This document shows positions 128 through 31,004 of a DNA stretch of 31,004 nt, in pieces (the first letter of the stretch is position 1; each line of letters opens with the position of its first letter). The DNA lies in the IMG/VR virus record IMGVR_UViG_3300022744_000016, positions 1 through 31,004 of that record, one strand, 5' to 3'. The notes beneath the pieces are model-generated. The model was not told the origin of the DNA, did not search any database, and saw nothing but the letters and a program-made list of their open reading frames with translations. The stretch comes from a virus. The translations under genes were made by a program, and so were the position numbers.

Positions 128-1686
128 TCGGCCGCATCCATCTCCATCGCCTTGGCTTGGGCTTCATAGAGAATGTCCAACGATTGAGCATACGCTTCGG
201 CACTCATCTTGCCGTCCATGTAGTTGCCCACAAGGGCAGACATGGCACCGTTCACCGCATCCAAATGGCTGGGGGTTTTCCCCAGCAGGTCATCCAATAC
301 CCCCTGTGCATCGGCCAGGGCGGTCGCATCATCCTCAATGGCGCTGTAGTCAATCCCCTCCAGCGCAGCACTCAGCGCATCAACCTGCCGTTCCAATGAG
401 GCAAAATGGTTGACACTTTCATTTGTGGCTTTGGTATCGGCTTCCATTGCTTTGGTAGCCCGCTGCTGGATCCCGATGAATTTAGCCCCTTTGGCCGCCA
501 GATCATCCCATGTGCTCCCCAGCACCCCACTTGCCGCAGCATTTTCGTAGTAAGATACGGCTGTTTCTGCGATAGTTTGCTGTAGATTGGAAAAACTATC
601 GATGGCAGAGGCTATGCCACTGGGCAACTCTTGTCCGGTGGCGGTGTAAAGCCATCCCAATACTTGTACCAGCCACTGGAGAGGCTTCAGTGGCGCTGTC
701 AATGCATTTACAAACTGCGTTGTTACAAAAACAGCTAGGTCGTGAAAGATACTCCTGCCTTCCAAAAACCGCTCAAATGCGACCTCTCCTGTGAGGGCAA
801 GACCGACCATCACATTGGCGACTCGCTCAAAAGCCGGTGCAACACTTCCCCCCAGAGTCACTACTGCCTTATCCCAGATGGATTTCATCGCAGTCACTGA
901 TGCATTAACTGCATCGATACTGGCGATAGTTTCTTTTGGCACACCTGGGTAAAAGTCCGACCGGATCTTTTTAAATCCTTCGAGACTCTTAAGTGCCTCA
1001 TCACTTGCAAAGACGGCCGCTCCAAGGCCAGCGACCAGCCCAACCGTGACCCCAGTAATGAGCGCCATAGCGCCGACTGCGATGCCGATGGGATTGGCCA
1101 TTAGGGTGAATAGTTCTGTCAGATCGGCAATGCTATTTGCTGCTTGACCTGCCGCCGGAGAGATGACTCCCAACCCCTGAGATGCTTTCTGGGCTTTATC
1201 ACCAAAATCTTTTAGTCCCTCACCGCCCTCCCCGGTGGTTTTTTTAATATCCTCCCCCAGTTTTTTCTGGGCAGCGGCCAGTGCTTTGTCGGCCGCCTCC
1301 ATGTCCCCACTTGCCGCCCGAAGCCGCTCAATCTCAATTCGTTGCTTTTCAAAAGCCTGATTGAGTTGTGCGACCGGATCTCCCACCGCTCCTAAGGCAG
1401 CCAGGCTTGCCACTGCCGCATCCCGCTCAGACTGCTGCGCCGCCGCCGTGGCCTCCAACTGCCCCTGAAGCGCCCGATACTCCCCGACCGAAACGCCCAA
1501 CGCCGCTGCCATAGCCTGATCTTGGGCCTTTGCCTTGCCCATGGCCTCGGCCGAGTCTACCAGGCGCTCGGCTGCCGTCCGGGCTGCCTCGGCCGTCTGT
1601 CCCAAAGCACCCGCAGCATCGCCTGCAGGACCGCCTACGCGATTCTGAAGTTCGAGGATGAGAGTAACTTTAGTGCTGTCAGCCAT
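1..1686 (-). CDS. Tail tape measure protein, N-terminal part (continues at 30,877)
   Basis: This frame is open from the ATG at 1686 to base 1 (562 codons) and continues in phase at 30,877 down to the stop at 30,158, giving 801 aa in the circle. The tape measure sets tail length and is wound inside the tail tube. Evidence is the length, an Ala-rich and coiled-coil-prone N-terminus with many Lys/Glu-containing helices, a hydrophobic stretch around residues 190-235 (IGIAVGAMALITGVTVGLVA), and the position just after the frameshifted chaperone. Its ATG overlaps the chaperone stop as TAATG. At about 1.5 angstrom per residue the tail would be roughly 120 nm, an inference. Confidence 0.88.
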   Translation of the reverse strand, partial: MADSTKVTLILELQNRVGGPAGDAAGALGQTAEAARTAAERLVDSAEAMGKAKAQDQAMAAALGVSVGEYRALQGQLEATAAAQQSERDAAVASLAALGAVGDPVAQLNQAFEKQRIEIERLRAASGDMEAADKALAAAQKKLGEDIKKTTGEGGEGLKDFGDKAQKASQGLGVISPAAGQAANSIADLTELFTLMANPIGIAVGAMALITGVTVGLVAGLGAAVFASDEALKSLEGFKKIRSDFYPGVPKETIASIDAVNASVTAMKSIWDKAVVTLGGSVAPAFERVANVMVGLALTGEVAFERFLEGRSIFHDLAVFVTTQFVNALTAPLKPLQWLVQVLGWLYTATGQELPSGIASAIDSFSNLQQTIAETAVSYYENAAASGVLGSTWDDLAAKGAKFIGIQQRATKAMEADTKATNESVNHFASLERQVDALSAALEGIDYSAIEDDATALADAQGVLDDLLGKTPSHLDAVNGAMSALVGNYMDGKMSAEAYAQSLDILYEAQAKAMEMDAADTKARALKKVGDTANTVVSASTSISGLVKLDPTGISSAVVGGL

Positions 1687-1871
1687 TACACAAGCCCCAC
1701 CATGGCCATTGCGCCTTTTTTCAGCGCCCGCCCTTTGGCCGCATCCACCGCCCGCATGCAGACCATCGCAAAGCCAAGGCGCTCAGGATCCCACAGCATC
1801 ACACTGTAAGGGTCCGTTCCGTACCGGGCTGCAATGGCATCCACAAGATCCACCTGATCAGGATCCTCCGC
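1686..1871 (-). CDS. Tail assembly chaperone frameshift extension (T-like)
   Basis: This 61-residue frame (AEDPDQVDLVDAIAARYGTD and onward) has no convincing start of its own and lies between the 176-aa chaperone and the tape measure. It is +1 (equivalently -2) relative to the upstream frame. A shift at 1875-1872, where UUU is followed by C, would let the Phe tRNA re-pair on UUC and give a 233-aa fusion, the GT-type product of lambda-like tail chaperones. A second possible slip is GGG-G at 1905-1902. The position directly before the tape measure is the family's conserved place. The shift itself is inferred. Confidence 0.65.
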   Translation of the reverse strand, partial: AEDPDQVDLVDAIAARYGTDPYSVMLWDPERLGFAMVCMRAVDAAKGRALKKGAMAMVGLV

Positions 1872-2388
1872 GAAATCGGGCGACACGTGCCAATGCCTCC
1901 GCCCCGCCGTTTGAATGGTCAATGATGATTTGTACCAGTTGTGCCCTCTCAGCCAAAGAGAGGGTCTTAAATGGCATCTCAGCGATACTGTCCCCCTCTT
2001 TAAAGGGGGCCGCATCGCCTCGAACGAACTTCGCAGGCTGCCAGTGGCTCCCATCTGTGGACGTTTCGCCCTCCTCAGCCACCCCAATCACACTCTCCAT
2101 CAGAACAGCTTCCTGCCAAGCGATCAACTCATTGATTTTACCGAGCTGTTCTTGCATTTTTCTCTGCTTGAAGCCACCCATGCGATGCTCTTTCTCAGCG
2201 CCGTCAGGCATCTCCGCGATGCTGGCCAGTTCTATCCGGTCCTCATCGGATTGAGGAAGCGCCGCAAATAGCCCTTCTCCCTGGCGAATCATGTCAATGG
2301 AGGAGATCCGTCGAATACGCCACTGGCATCCTCCCAGATTGACGCCAGTACACTCCATATCTTGGATCTTTTTAAGAATGTTTTTCAT
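1858..2388 (-). CDS. Tail assembly chaperone, unshifted form (G-like)
   Basis: A 176-aa mainly helical, charged protein between the tail tube gene and the tape measure, the position of lambda gpG. Such chaperones coat the tape measure before tube polymerisation and are not in the mature virion. It contains LGKINELIAWQEAVLMESV and ends ARVARFRGGS. The last codons overlap the extension frame, so both a short and a long product are expected. An SD-like GGAGGA lies at 1869-1864, next to the UCC-UGA end, and might also influence recoding. The function rests on position and the overlapping frame, not on recognised homology. Confidence 0.7.
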   Translation of the reverse strand: MKNILKKIQDMECTGVNLGGCQWRIRRISSIDMIRQGEGLFAALPQSDEDRIELASIAEMPDGAEKEHRMGGFKQRKMQEQLGKINELIAWQEAVLMESVIGVAEEGETSTDGSHWQPAKFVRGDAAPFKEGDSIAEMPFKTLSLAERAQLVQIIIDHSNGGAEALARVARFRGGS

Positions 2389-3350: not shown

Positions 3351-4118
3351 TTACGCCTCGTCTGTGTTGCGGACAGCCAGCCAGGCGCGCGCTTCCAGCA
3401 CCTGCTTGCCCCCCTGTGAATTAGTTGTAGTGACCTGCAACGCGATTGTGTAATCCGTCGCATCGTCACCTGCTTTTACCAGGACTCGTACAAAACGCCC
3501 CTGGATGAATCTGCTTTCCGTTGCCGTGTACATTGACGTTTGGTTGCTTCCAGCCGTCAATACCTGCAACGAAGACACCCGTGAGATCTCTTCATACAGC
3601 ATACGGTCCCCATAGGGGGTACGCCGAGATTCCAGTATGCCTGAAAGGTCAAAAAACACATACACGGCCTCCCCAGAGGTCTTCTGGATCTTTGCCCTTG
3701 GGCGTAAATCCTTGAAATTCTCTGGGCGTACGGAGATCGTACGGGCCGTGGGCGCGCCCAGCTCCACGTATGCGCTTTTAGGTGAGGACAAGGTTTGCGA
3801 GGAGGAGACAGTGGTGGCCGTCGAATTGCTCCAGTACAGAAAAACCTGACACATCCCCTCCTCTGGGGGTGTCCAGTTATTGACCTTGACCGTACATGTC
3901 CGGCTGGTAGAACTGAAGCTATTAAATTCCACACTGCCAATCAATGTCACGCCATCGGCAGCAGCCAGCCGAAGGTCGGCCCCAGAAGAGAGAACAGTCT
4001 CCCAAAACTCATCCCAGTCTGCTGGTATCGTGAACTGAATATCGATAGTAGCCGTGGTACCACCACTATTATCAACAGTCACGCTGGCTCGTTTTTCCCA
4101 TCCGTCTAACCAACTCAT
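3351..4118 (-). CDS. DUF2341-like virion-associated protein
   Basis: A 255-aa protein. Its N-terminal half (WEKRASVTVDNSGG, FTIPADWDEFWETVLSSGAD, DGVTLIGSVEFNSF, then CQVFLYWSN near residue 92) follows the pattern of DUF2341: a Trp start, an 'I.vdN' strand, 'G.D.R..DG.tlL', and an aromatic strand ending in an Asn like 'YYGN'. The second half is beta-rich and unassigned. DUF2341 is usually found in secreted multidomain bacterial surface proteins. Here the gene lies between tail terminator and tail tube, so a tail or neck decoration with adhesive function is inferred. Its ATG at 4118 overlaps the upstream stop by 4 nt. Confidence 0.5.
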   Translation of the reverse strand: MSWLDGWEKRASVTVDNSGGTTATIDIQFTIPADWDEFWETVLSSGADLRLAAADGVTLIGSVEFNSFSSTSRTCTVKVNNWTPPEEGMCQVFLYWSNSTATTVSSSQTLSSPKSAYVELGAPTARTISVRPENFKDLRPRAKIQKTSGEAVYVFFDLSGILESRRTPYGDRMLYEEISRVSSLQVLTAGSNQTSMYTATESRFIQGRFVRVLVKAGDDATDYTIALQVTTTNSQGGKQVLEARAWLAVRNTDEA

Positions 4119-21716: not shown

Positions 21717-22125
21717 GGCACAACATCAACATCAACCGATGCCTTGGGTGGAGACCGCCGACGTGCGGGCACATCTGGGCATCTGCGCTCAGCTTTTACG
21801 AGCAATGATGGTAGACACACCCGCCGCTGGCCTGGCTGCCCCCTGGATGGATTTGGGCATCGGCAAGCGCAAATGTTTTAGATGGCGATTGGAAGAAGTG
21901 GACCATTGGGCAAGGGAGATTTACAAATGGCGAGCATCGAAAAGGCACCAAATGGAAAGGGATATCGCGTCAGATGGCGCGATATGTCGGGCAAACAGTG
22001 TTGCAGGCATTGCCCCGACCACGACACAGCAAAAAAGCTCAGGCTCAAAGTCGAGTCGTCCATTGCCCTCGGACAAGACTGGAATCCGGCAGATCCTACG
22101 CCTACCACTCCCACGCTCGAAGTGA
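21709..22125 (+). CDS. Excisionase-like HTH protein
   Basis: A 138-aa frame. The first ~75 residues look like an excisionase/MerR-type winged helix: WVETADVRAHLGICAQLLRA, then APWMDLGIGKRKCFRWRLEE and VDHWAREIYKW. It lies directly before the integrase, as xis genes often do. Its last ~65 codons run out of frame over the integrase start and yield a Ser/Lys/Arg-rich tail that looks like a by-product of the overlap, which is unusually long at 199 nt. The protein probably steers integrase toward excision and may repress nearby promoters. Confidence 0.68.
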   Translation: MSKAQHQHQPMPWVETADVRAHLGICAQLLRAMMVDTPAAGLAAPWMDLGIGKRKCFRWRLEEVDHWAREIYKWRASKRHQMERDIASDGAICRANSVAGIAPTTTQQKSSGSKSSRPLPSDKTGIRQILRLPLPRSK

Positions 22126-23237
22126 TCTGCCAGTCTTACCTGGATGATCAGGTCAGAGTGTTGTCACCCAGAACGCTGGAGGGGCGCCATTTCGTGCTCA
22201 ATCAGTTTTTGACGTGGCTTCAGGATCGTTTTGGTGAGAATATCGATACGAAAAGGATTTCTCGCCAACTGATGGCCGATTTTTATGCTTGGCTGACCAG
22301 TGTTCGTGAGTGCTCTGCCCTGACCGCAGGCCAACGTGTGCGCAATATAGAATCATTGTGGCGATGGGCTTGTGATCACGATGATTATGAGCCTCATATG
22401 CCCCGTTACAAAAAGCTTGTACTTGCGCCCACGCAGCCCAAATTACGCCCGATTGCTCCAACCTGGGCACAGATGGATGCCGTAGTAGAGTCAACATATG
22501 GGTGGTACCACCCTTTTTTCACAATGTTGCGCTACACGGGACTACGCAAGAGCCAGGTCATGCGCCTCCAGTGGGACGATGTGGATATGGAGGCTGGTAC
22601 ATTGTATATCAGGCCAGAATTGGGCAAAAGCCGACGAGAAAAGCATGGTAGGACAGTCCCATTGTCTCCCCATTTGCTCAAAGAGATGGCCGGTTGGGGT
22701 AAACGCCAAGGGTGGCTGGTGCCCTGTGCCCGTGCAAACCGCCTCCCCGACGCGGAAAAATCCAAGAGGATTTGGAGCCGGGCCGGAATCATCCACCCCG
22801 ACATTCTCAGGCAACCGCACCACGCCTTTCGTAAGGGGCTGGTGTCTGGGTTACGGGCGATGCGAGCCGATAAAGACGCAATAAAATATCTTGTTGGGCA
22901 TGACCTCGATGTCATGGGGGAAGTGTACAGCGACCCCAGTTTTGCATTGGCCCTTCGAGAAACGGTGGCCATGATCCCAGCCATCGGTGCATCTGGGGTG
23001 ATGGACCTCTCGGGCCTGCTGACGGCCCCGCCCATCTCCAAACTGACGGCTGATGATGTACGGGAGATCCGGAAGCGGGTGGGCCAGGAGAGCCGGATGG
23101 CGCTGGCCTTGGCCTATGGGGTGTCAGTGACCACCATTAGCCAGATCGTGCTGCGCAAGACCTGGAAAGACCTGGATGGGGAGGTGTGTACGCCAAGTGT
23201 ACTTGGACTAGACCCCTCCCAAAAGGCTGTTGGATGA
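21927..23237 (+). CDS. int: Tyrosine recombinase (phage integrase) with extra C-terminal HTH
   Basis: A 436-aa integrase. Residues 1-55 form an arm-binding-like start (KGYRVRWRDMSGKQ). The SAM-like core-binding domain spans about 62-160. The catalytic domain has Arg207 (TGLRKSQV), a beta-hairpin Lys near 234, HAFR (His299, Arg302), GHDLDVMGEVY with His325 and the nucleophile Tyr334. Residues ~371-415 (KLTADDVREIRKRVGQ, then YGVSVTTISQIVLRKTW) add a second DNA-binding HTH, which usual integrases lack. ATG 21,927 follows AAGGGAG. It inserts and removes the phage at attP/attB. Confidence 0.92.
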   Translation: MASIEKAPNGKGYRVRWRDMSGKQCCRHCPDHDTAKKLRLKVESSIALGQDWNPADPTPTTPTLEVICQSYLDDQVRVLSPRTLEGRHFVLNQFLTWLQDRFGENIDTKRISRQLMADFYAWLTSVRECSALTAGQRVRNIESLWRWACDHDDYEPHMPRYKKLVLAPTQPKLRPIAPTWAQMDAVVESTYGWYHPFFTMLRYTGLRKSQVMRLQWDDVDMEAGTLYIRPELGKSRREKHGRTVPLSPHLLKEMAGWGKRQGWLVPCARANRLPDAEKSKRIWSRAGIIHPDILRQPHHAFRKGLVSGLRAMRADKDAIKYLVGHDLDVMGEVYSDPSFALALRETVAMIPAIGASGVMDLSGLLTAPPISKLTADDVREIRKRVGQESRMALALAYGVSVTTISQIVLRKTWKDLDGEVCTPSVLGLDPSQKAVG

Positions 23238-30165: not shown

Positions 30166-31004
30166 AGGATAGCCCCCTACCCGTGGAGCCTAGGTGCTTA
30201 CGAAGCACACGTACAAGCTCCTCCACATTGGAGGCGATCACGCCACTGATATAGAAGTTCACACTTCCACCAGCACTACTTCTTGCTGCATCGGCAGGGT
30301 TCATCACTCGCTCCCCCTGATGCAATTGATACAATCCGTCTTTTCTTACATAATCAATACCACTTGCATAGCTACCATCTTCTTTGGGGTGCGAGAAGAG
30401 GTTAGCGATTTTACCGCCCTCCTGGGCAGATCCAAATAAACCCAAAGGCCCCTTGCCGGTGCCATCCTCGCGTTTGACGCCGATTAGCTCTTTTAAGGCA
30501 TCAAATAGTCCCCCAATCAGCGCTTTGCCCATACTCACCCAAAATTTGGGATCCAACAGCATTTCCATCGCTGATAATATGAGTGTTGGCATTAAAAGCC
30601 ACACACTCTCCAAGATGTCGGGCAATGCCTCGAAAAGCGACTCAATGATCCCCGGCACTGACCGTACCGCTCCGATGATGATGTCATCCACCTGACCGGC
30701 CAAGGCCGCAACTGTGTCGCCAATGGAGCCGATGAGCTTCGGCACAAGATTGGTTAGGATGTCCATAAGGAAAGGGCCAATCATGGAGGGTATCGAGCGC
30801 AGCCCGTCGATGGCCCCACTGAGCAGGCCTTGGGCCTCCTTAAAGATCCCGCCATCTTTCATGGCACCGAGTCCCTGGAGGCCTCCGACCACAGCGCTGG
30901 AAATGCCGGTGGGATCCAGTTTGACCAGTCCAGAGATGGAGGTAGACGCAGACACGACTGTATTGGCAGTATCCCCTACCTTTTTGAGTGCCCTGGCCTT
31001 GGTA
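30158..31004 (-). CDS. Tail tape measure protein, C-terminal part
   Basis: These are the last 239 residues of the 801-aa tape measure protein; 30,878-31,004 duplicates the window start. The segment is rich in hydrophobic helices (for example the LIGSIGDTVAALAGQVDDII region), as often seen in the C-terminal half of tape measures. It ends with a more polar tail (YVRKDGLYQLHQGERVMNP), a motif frequent near the C-terminus of siphophage tape measures. The internal ATG at 30,955 is not the real start. The stop overlaps the TTG start of the next tail gene by 8 nt. Confidence 0.85.
   Translation of the reverse strand, partial: TKARALKKVGDTANTVVSASTSISGLVKLDPTGISSAVVGGLQGLGAMKDGGIFKEAQGLLSGAIDGLRSIPSMIGPFLMDILTNLVPKLIGSIGDTVAALAGQVDDIIIGAVRSVPGIIESLFEALPDILESVWLLMPTLILSAMEMLLDPKFWVSMGKALIGGLFDALKELIGVKREDGTGKGPLGLFGSAQEGGKIANLFSHPKEDGSYASGIDYVRKDGLYQLHQGERVMNPADAARSSAGGSVNFYISGVIASNVEELVRVLRKHLGSTGRGLSFG

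Follow-up and report, generated by a model that had tools for sequence, protein, structure and literature searches.

Organization of the locus

The stretch analysed here, called the window below, is the whole of the 31,004-base virus record IMGVR_UViG_3300022744_000016 (positions 1 to 31,004). An exact direct repeat of 127 bp occupies its two termini (1-127 and 30878-31004), and both this repeat and the observation that the tape measure gene exits one end, with tape-measure-like sequence at the other, indicate that the record probably represents the complete genome, about 30.9 kb long, of a phage with circularly permuted or terminally redundant DNA. The minus strand carries, in order, terminase, portal, protease, capsid, connectors, tail terminator, an unknown gene, tail tube, the two open reading frames studied here (G and T), and tape measure. 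The tape measure gene probably continues, by way of the 127-bp terminal repeat, into 31003-30158, and the window end opposite its ORF has matches to PHROG tape measure families. The features that concern us are, from upstream to downstream:

3347-2391, minus strand: tail tube protein (PF18906 Phage_tube_2, E 3.3e-23; phrog_290, E 1.1e-26)
2388-1858, minus strand: G, predicted short tail assembly chaperone, 176 aa, zero frame (ORF, position between tail tube and tape measure, structural model)
1905-1902, minus strand: GGG-G run, a rejected alternative shift site
1902-1895, minus strand: SD-like GCGGAGGC, core GGAGG at 1900-1896, with 20 nt between core and UUU; candidate stimulator (anti-SD pairing peak in relatives)
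1878-1872, minus strand: putative shift site CGA UUU C, where tRNA-Phe would move from UUU (1875-1873) to UUC (1874-1872) (conservation of UUU-C and of Phe172)
1874-1686, minus strand: T, predicted +1-frame extension after the shift, from UUC at 1874 (frame offset; alignment of 29 members conserved from the Phe)
1869-1864, minus strand: GGAGGA before the G stop, not conserved
1686-1, minus strand: tape measure protein, N-terminal part (ORF open at the contig end)

Elsewhere in the window, the gene between tail terminator and tail tube (3351-4118, minus strand) is common only to L005-L008 among the loci compared and has no Pfam match above cut-off and no PHROG match. An integrase lies at 21882-23237 on the plus strand (phrog_1, E 1.2e-32), the C-terminal end of which matches HNH endonuclease families, and no tRNA gene was found in the window.

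The G ORF begins with ATG at 2388 and ends with UGA at 1860-1858, while the T frame, preceded by a stop at 2090-2088, is open from 2087 to UAA at 1688-1686, so that the two frames overlap by 227 nt. The tape measure ATG at 1686 overlaps the UAA of T. A first-pass annotation of this DNA had placed the downstream frame at +1 (or -2) to the first; the arithmetic agrees (2388-1688 = 700, which leaves 1 on division by 3), and all the positions that it gave are correct. An extension of the lambda type, by a -1 shift, was rejected: the -1 frame ends 59 nt beyond the G stop, at 1801, and it is the +1 frame that reaches the tape measure start. Two overlapping ORFs in different frames between the tail tube and tape measure genes are the arrangement of a G / G-T pair, and the same annotation's reading of the genes as tail chaperones fits their position between the PF18906 tail tube and the tape measure.

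Sequence comparison adds little to this assignment, tail chaperones being a family known for low sequence similarity. None of the 29 G and 29 T sequences assembled below has a PHROG match at E 0.01, and Pfam gives none for the window's G or T and two stray single-member matches among the relatives. The AlphaFold model of G (pLDDT 85) matches the tail assembly chaperone of phage Hawkeye in BFVD (E 3e-3), with several other chaperones lower; a Foldseek search of the PDB with the same model gives no match at E 0.001. Compared with the HK97 chaperone 2ob9, the model scores Z 6.5 over 97 residues at 3.8 A (rank 7), a level that unrelated helical chains also reach. On the basis of these structural matches and of gene order, G is likely to be a tail assembly chaperone.

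Assembling a family of relatives

Direct searches with G and T as queries gave no match in IMG/VR, G gave none in the phage collection, and a portal query returned nothing; G and T are too divergent for direct detection. The family was reached instead through the tail tube and then the major capsid protein. The tail tube alignment contained 30 IMG/VR loci, and a first set of 22 gene pairs (the window and 21 loci, including four named phages, with near-copies and truncated loci omitted) was read. The T frame is +1 in 8 of these pairs and -1 in 14, with the assignment of L036 uncertain since neither frame reaches the tape measure gene. An in-frame UUU-C is present within the overlap in seven of the eight +1 pairs, the eighth, L002, having CCC AAA A. 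Four of the eight (the window, L005, L007 and L008) have capsid, neck and tail genes in common, and a capsid alignment of these four yielded 272 relatives, of which 80 were kept and 44 had a tail tube detectable by HMM. Six of the 44 end too soon and were dropped (L131, L144, L149, L152, L154, L159); the other 38 and the window make 39 clade loci, or 29 non-redundant loci, window included, at 85% ungapped identity over 300 nt. For most counts we used a set of 33 loci, composed of these 29 together with L004, L017, L021 and the phage Trogglehumper (L069) from elsewhere on the tail-tube tree. L002 and L003, +1 pairs in which CCC AAA A is found and UUU-C is absent, were left out of this set by hand, and gene picks were corrected by hand in L017, L021, L083, L099, L110, L123, L126 and L150.

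In scans of genomes, tube alignment A2 gave no match, and A3 gave four, of which the readable pairs (L072-L074) are all -1 and L075 ends too early. The capsid profile had no match in 377 genomes and 16 weak matches in 299 genomes, and the clade capsid (L115 as query) had no match among 50,697 phage records.

A conserved UUU-C at the frame junction

The T frame is +1 in all 39 clade loci. The junction contains an in-frame UUU-C in 38 of them and UUU-U in one (L156), which also permits tRNA-Phe to re-pair. Among non-redundant loci the count is 28 of 29, which lends strong comparative support to the UUU-C that the first-pass annotation had preferred as shift site, read in the window as CGA-UUU-CGC at 1878-1870. 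The motif is also present in four loci outside the clade and in the haloarchaeal virus HSTV-2. In the 33-locus set UUU-C occurs in 32 loci overall and in 31 within the overlap or 90 nt, whichever is shorter, against a chance expectation of 1.95 +- 1.33 with codons drawn from the usage of each locus; for these counts, each locus is taken as independent of its relatives. The shortest overlap, that of L157, measures 14 nt, and UUU-C is the only homopolymer codon in it. UUU is followed by CGN in 24 loci, CCN in six, CAA in two and UUC in one, and is most often preceded by UCC (seven) or CGA (six).

The proteins change their pattern of conservation at the same codon. We ran the alignment of related phages that had been suggested with the original proposal, and in the 29 G proteins a single column is invariant, Phe172, encoded by the slip codon. 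The zero-frame tail beyond this Phe varies from 1 to 30 residues, and the 29 T sequences are conserved from the Phe onward in the +1 frame. The junction peptide predicted earlier for the window, VARF-AEDP, fits the conserved pattern of the relatives, ...RLAxF-AxDP.... Indeed, the codon itself is fixed as well as the residue: the slip-site Phe is encoded by UUU in 33/33 loci, whereas UUU makes up 0-79% of their other Phe codons and is rare elsewhere in many of them (5% in L083, 8% in L084, none counted in L069). The corresponding log10 P is about -16.8 for the 33 loci and -13.9 for the 29 clade loci [a pseudocount was used, given the zero count in L069, and the values ignore kinship and are thus overstated]. 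Constraint on the protein cannot by itself favour UUU above UUC.

The position of the switch was also estimated from codon usage with a model blind to the site, in the 16 loci that have an overlap of at least 150 nt. The estimated switch lies a median of 6 nt from UUU, and in 11 of the 16 the likelihood at UUU is within 2 log units. In the window the best position is 6 nt upstream of UUU (3-15 nt), UUU itself being 2.2 units below. The site in L004 is doubtful, because its switch falls 57 nt downstream of UUU. No contribution of downstream RNA structure was detected, folding in the 33 loci being no better than that of shuffled sequences (mean z -0.01 and 0.02).

Two alternative routes into the same frame can be weighed against these data. 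A +1 shift at the GGG-G run (1905-1902), named as a further candidate in the first-pass annotation, would allow perfect re-pairing of tRNA-Gly. The run is in frame near the overlap end in only 8/33 loci, however, and at 30 nt upstream of UUU it is disfavoured by the window's codon-usage switch, while the +1-frame residues between it and UUU resemble nothing conserved in relatives; we regard its probability as practically negligible. A -2 shift of the phage Mu kind at or near UUU, adding one residue, would lead to the same downstream frame as +1. In the window, however, tRNA-Phe would then face GAU with no re-pairing, and the base before UUU varies (C in 17, G in 9, A in 6 and U in 1 of 33 loci), whereas the base after it is C in 32/33, as a +1 movement to UUC needs. 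Since UUU re-pairs to UUC with the same tRNA, and given these two obstacles, we infer that the direction is +1 and leave the -2 shift a very slight chance.

An SD-like element upstream of the slip site

A second conserved element, absent from the candidates listed previously, is an SD-like GGAGG that precedes UUU by about 20 nt in nearly all clade members. Pairing with the anti-SD sequence has a sharp maximum some 25 nt before UUU, with a mean of -8.4 kcal/mol as compared with -4.8 +- 0.38 under synonymous codon resampling (z -9.4). In 31/33 loci the best anti-SD site of the 45 nt before UUU has its start between -24 and -34; a core is present in 31 loci, and in 26 of these it is separated from UUU by 20-24 nt. 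Among 17 diverse clade members, picked by hand from the tree, 15 have the strongest anti-SD site of the entire G ORF at -26 to -34; the exceptions are the window, where the element does not rank first in G, and L132, where it ranks second. No SD-like element was found within 45 nt upstream in L021 or HSTV-2, and in L069 it is 11 nt away. The GGAGGA just before the G stop, proposed earlier as a further candidate, does not take this role, as its position is 3' of the slip site and the relatives do not share it, and it was rejected as a stimulator.

The element might be no more than a by-product of a conserved Glu-Ala in the helix before the slip site, with the shift at UUU-C kept. Most members do encode Glu-Ala or Glu-Val at this position, the encoded residues by themselves account for about half of the anti-SD pairing energy, and per-locus synonymous tests are weak, single loci being mostly not significant and the codons of the window element, taken alone, not being beyond synonymous expectation (p 0.32). 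Against this, the synonymous test over the 17 diverse members gives a Fisher p of 3.7e-4, 25 of the 29 Glu codons are GAG where 16.1 +- 2.5 are expected, and L086, L115, L157 and L158 build GGAGG from Gly-Gly or Arg-Arg codons. We consider the by-product explanation a serious, if less than probable, one.

An SD-like sequence inside G could also suggest that T is a separate protein, started within G at a +1-frame GTG with no frameshift. The upstream GGAGG is conserved in the clade, and in the window both GTG 1886 (GGAGG at 9 nt) and GTG 1853 (GAGGA at 10 nt, within the GGAGGA at 1869-1864) have a plausible SD spacing for such a start. But 11 of the 33 loci have no +1-frame ATG, GTG or TTG from -40 to +60 of UUU, and only eight have a +1-frame start with an SD-like sequence 4-12 nt before it. 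L157 has a +1-frame stop between its SD-like element and UUU, and because of this stop and of the 11 loci without a nearby start, the element cannot be what starts T in general. An own start of T would moreover leave the choice of UUU over UUC unexplained, and we consider it unlikely, with a slim chance of being correct.

We therefore return to stimulation of the shift. Given the pairing pattern across relatives, the SD-like element is likely to stimulate the shift, and to do so over an unusual distance; it might hold the ribosome, or make it pause about five codons short of the site. A distance of about 20 nt fits neither the geometry of release factor 2 (+1) nor that of dnaX (-1). The SD of release factor 2 is spaced by about 3 nt, as compared with mostly 20-24 nt between core and UUU in the clade (20 in the window). 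That the clade has a new two-part +1 signal, UUU-C together with an internal SD about 20 nt upstream, with anti-SD pairing beyond the E site promoting the slip, is a proposal to which we give somewhat less than an even chance.

Proposed mechanism and comparison with known systems

Taking these observations together, it is very probable that the two ORFs encode G / G-T tail assembly chaperones expressed through programmed +1 frameshifting at UUU-C, the upstream GGAGG probably helping. Most ribosomes would read G through to the UGA. On a minority of them, when UUU occupies the P site and CGC the A site, the peptidyl-tRNA-Phe would slip by +1, from UUU to UUC with the same tRNA, and the slipped ribosomes would continue through ...VARF-AEDP... 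to the end of T, making G-T at a low, fixed ratio to G. The tryptic peptide starting at the slip codon is predicted to be FAEDPDQVDLVDAIAAR. The GGAGG about 20 nt before UUU would probably aid by holding or pausing the approaching ribosome, and no downstream RNA structure is expected to be involved in the shift.

The closest parallels are found in haloviruses. A +1 shift was considered very likely for the tail chaperone pair of HSTV-2 (PMC5009743), and in six viruses of the HF1 group TTT-CGC near the G stop was proposed as a +1 site, with reference to PA-X (PMC7230728). In the HSTV-2 record, read here, we find UCC UUU CGC in an overlap of 56 nt. These viruses share with the window the gene pair, the +1 frame and a UUU-CGC close to the end of G, and for them too the shift is a proposal made from the sequence. 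They are archaeal myoviruses, likened to the clade by site and gene pair, and HSTV-2, unlike the clade, is without an SD-like core within 45 nt upstream. Hence this type of site is not new, having already been proposed for the HF1 group and being present in HSTV-2. Beyond these viruses, no other report of a UUU-C +1 shift in tail chaperones was found in the titles, abstracts and passages covered, which came mostly from open-access literature in which "+1" is not searchable, nor was any report of a distant SD-like element found in the same material.

The site resembles that of the influenza A virus PA-X shift, UCC_UUU_CGU (PMC3498833), in that both would involve P-site +1 slippage on UUU_C with CGN next, as found in 24 of the 33 loci, and the exact PA-X arrangement UCC UUU CGN is present in 5/33 loci; PA-X differs in its eukaryotic ribosome, in having no SD and in concerning an unrelated gene. 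In bacteria UUU_Y is known to be +1-prone (PMC5009743). Bacterial release factor 2 combines +1 slippage with an internal upstream SD, as the clade appears to do (PMC5009743), with the difference that its slippage occurs at CUU before a stop codon whereas in the clade UUU precedes a sense codon (CGC in the window). The lambda-type G / G-T pair has the same gene order and a low-ratio extended product encoded before the tape measure gene (PMC5009743), but slips by -1 where the window pair would slip by +1. The -2 shift of the phage Mu tail chaperones leads to the same relative frame as in the window (PMC3498833), but the window's site is without -2 re-pairing.

Origins of the UUU-C state and -1 relatives

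On the tail-tube tree, the 29 loci group as a single clade with strong support (100/99). The tree requires at least five gains or losses of the UUU-C +1 state, each forced by well-supported branches, while the exact places of L017, L004 and some -1 rows are unsure because of long branches. L021 is placed among -1 relatives. Trogglehumper, a cultured Rhodococcus phage, has a +1 pair with ACG UUU CCC in a 41-nt overlap, whereas the homologues of its chaperones in phages of Gordonia, Tsukamurella and Rhodococcus are -1 in all seven read. Because of L021 and of the Trogglehumper homologues, UUU-C seems to have arisen several times.

The -1 chaperone pairs of Gordonia phages L076, L077, L079 and L080 have UUC near the junction (GAU UUC or AAU UUC), and the same Phe tRNA may slip either way, -1 in these phages and +1 in Trogglehumper. 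The +1 pairs of L002 (3874-4411) and L003 carry CCC AAA A where relatives have C CCA AAA, and it is at this same place that C CCA AAA is found with a -1 frame in L010, L019, L023 and L024; in L002 and L003, the alteration of one base seems to have reversed the shift on the same slippery run. In Rhodococcus phage Perlina (PP782351; L164, 14432-15276) the deposited join leads to the -1 frame, and the accompanying paper states a -2 shift (PMC11556095).

Implications

What appears to be new here is the clade and the distant SD-like element, the kind of site being already known. A class of +1 signals on UUU_C with restricted neighbouring codons was predicted by Firth et al. 2012 (PMC3498833), and according to the makers of PRFect a general motif for forward shifts is yet to be identified (PMC10885494). 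The 29 divergent natural copies of one UUU-C signal constitute a comparative set in which its further requirements may be found, and the conservation of an SD-like element at about 20 nt offers a testable hypothesis on how pairing with rRNA could steer the ribosome forward. Knowledge of the UUU-C signal would also allow second tail chaperones that now escape annotation in phages to be recognized.
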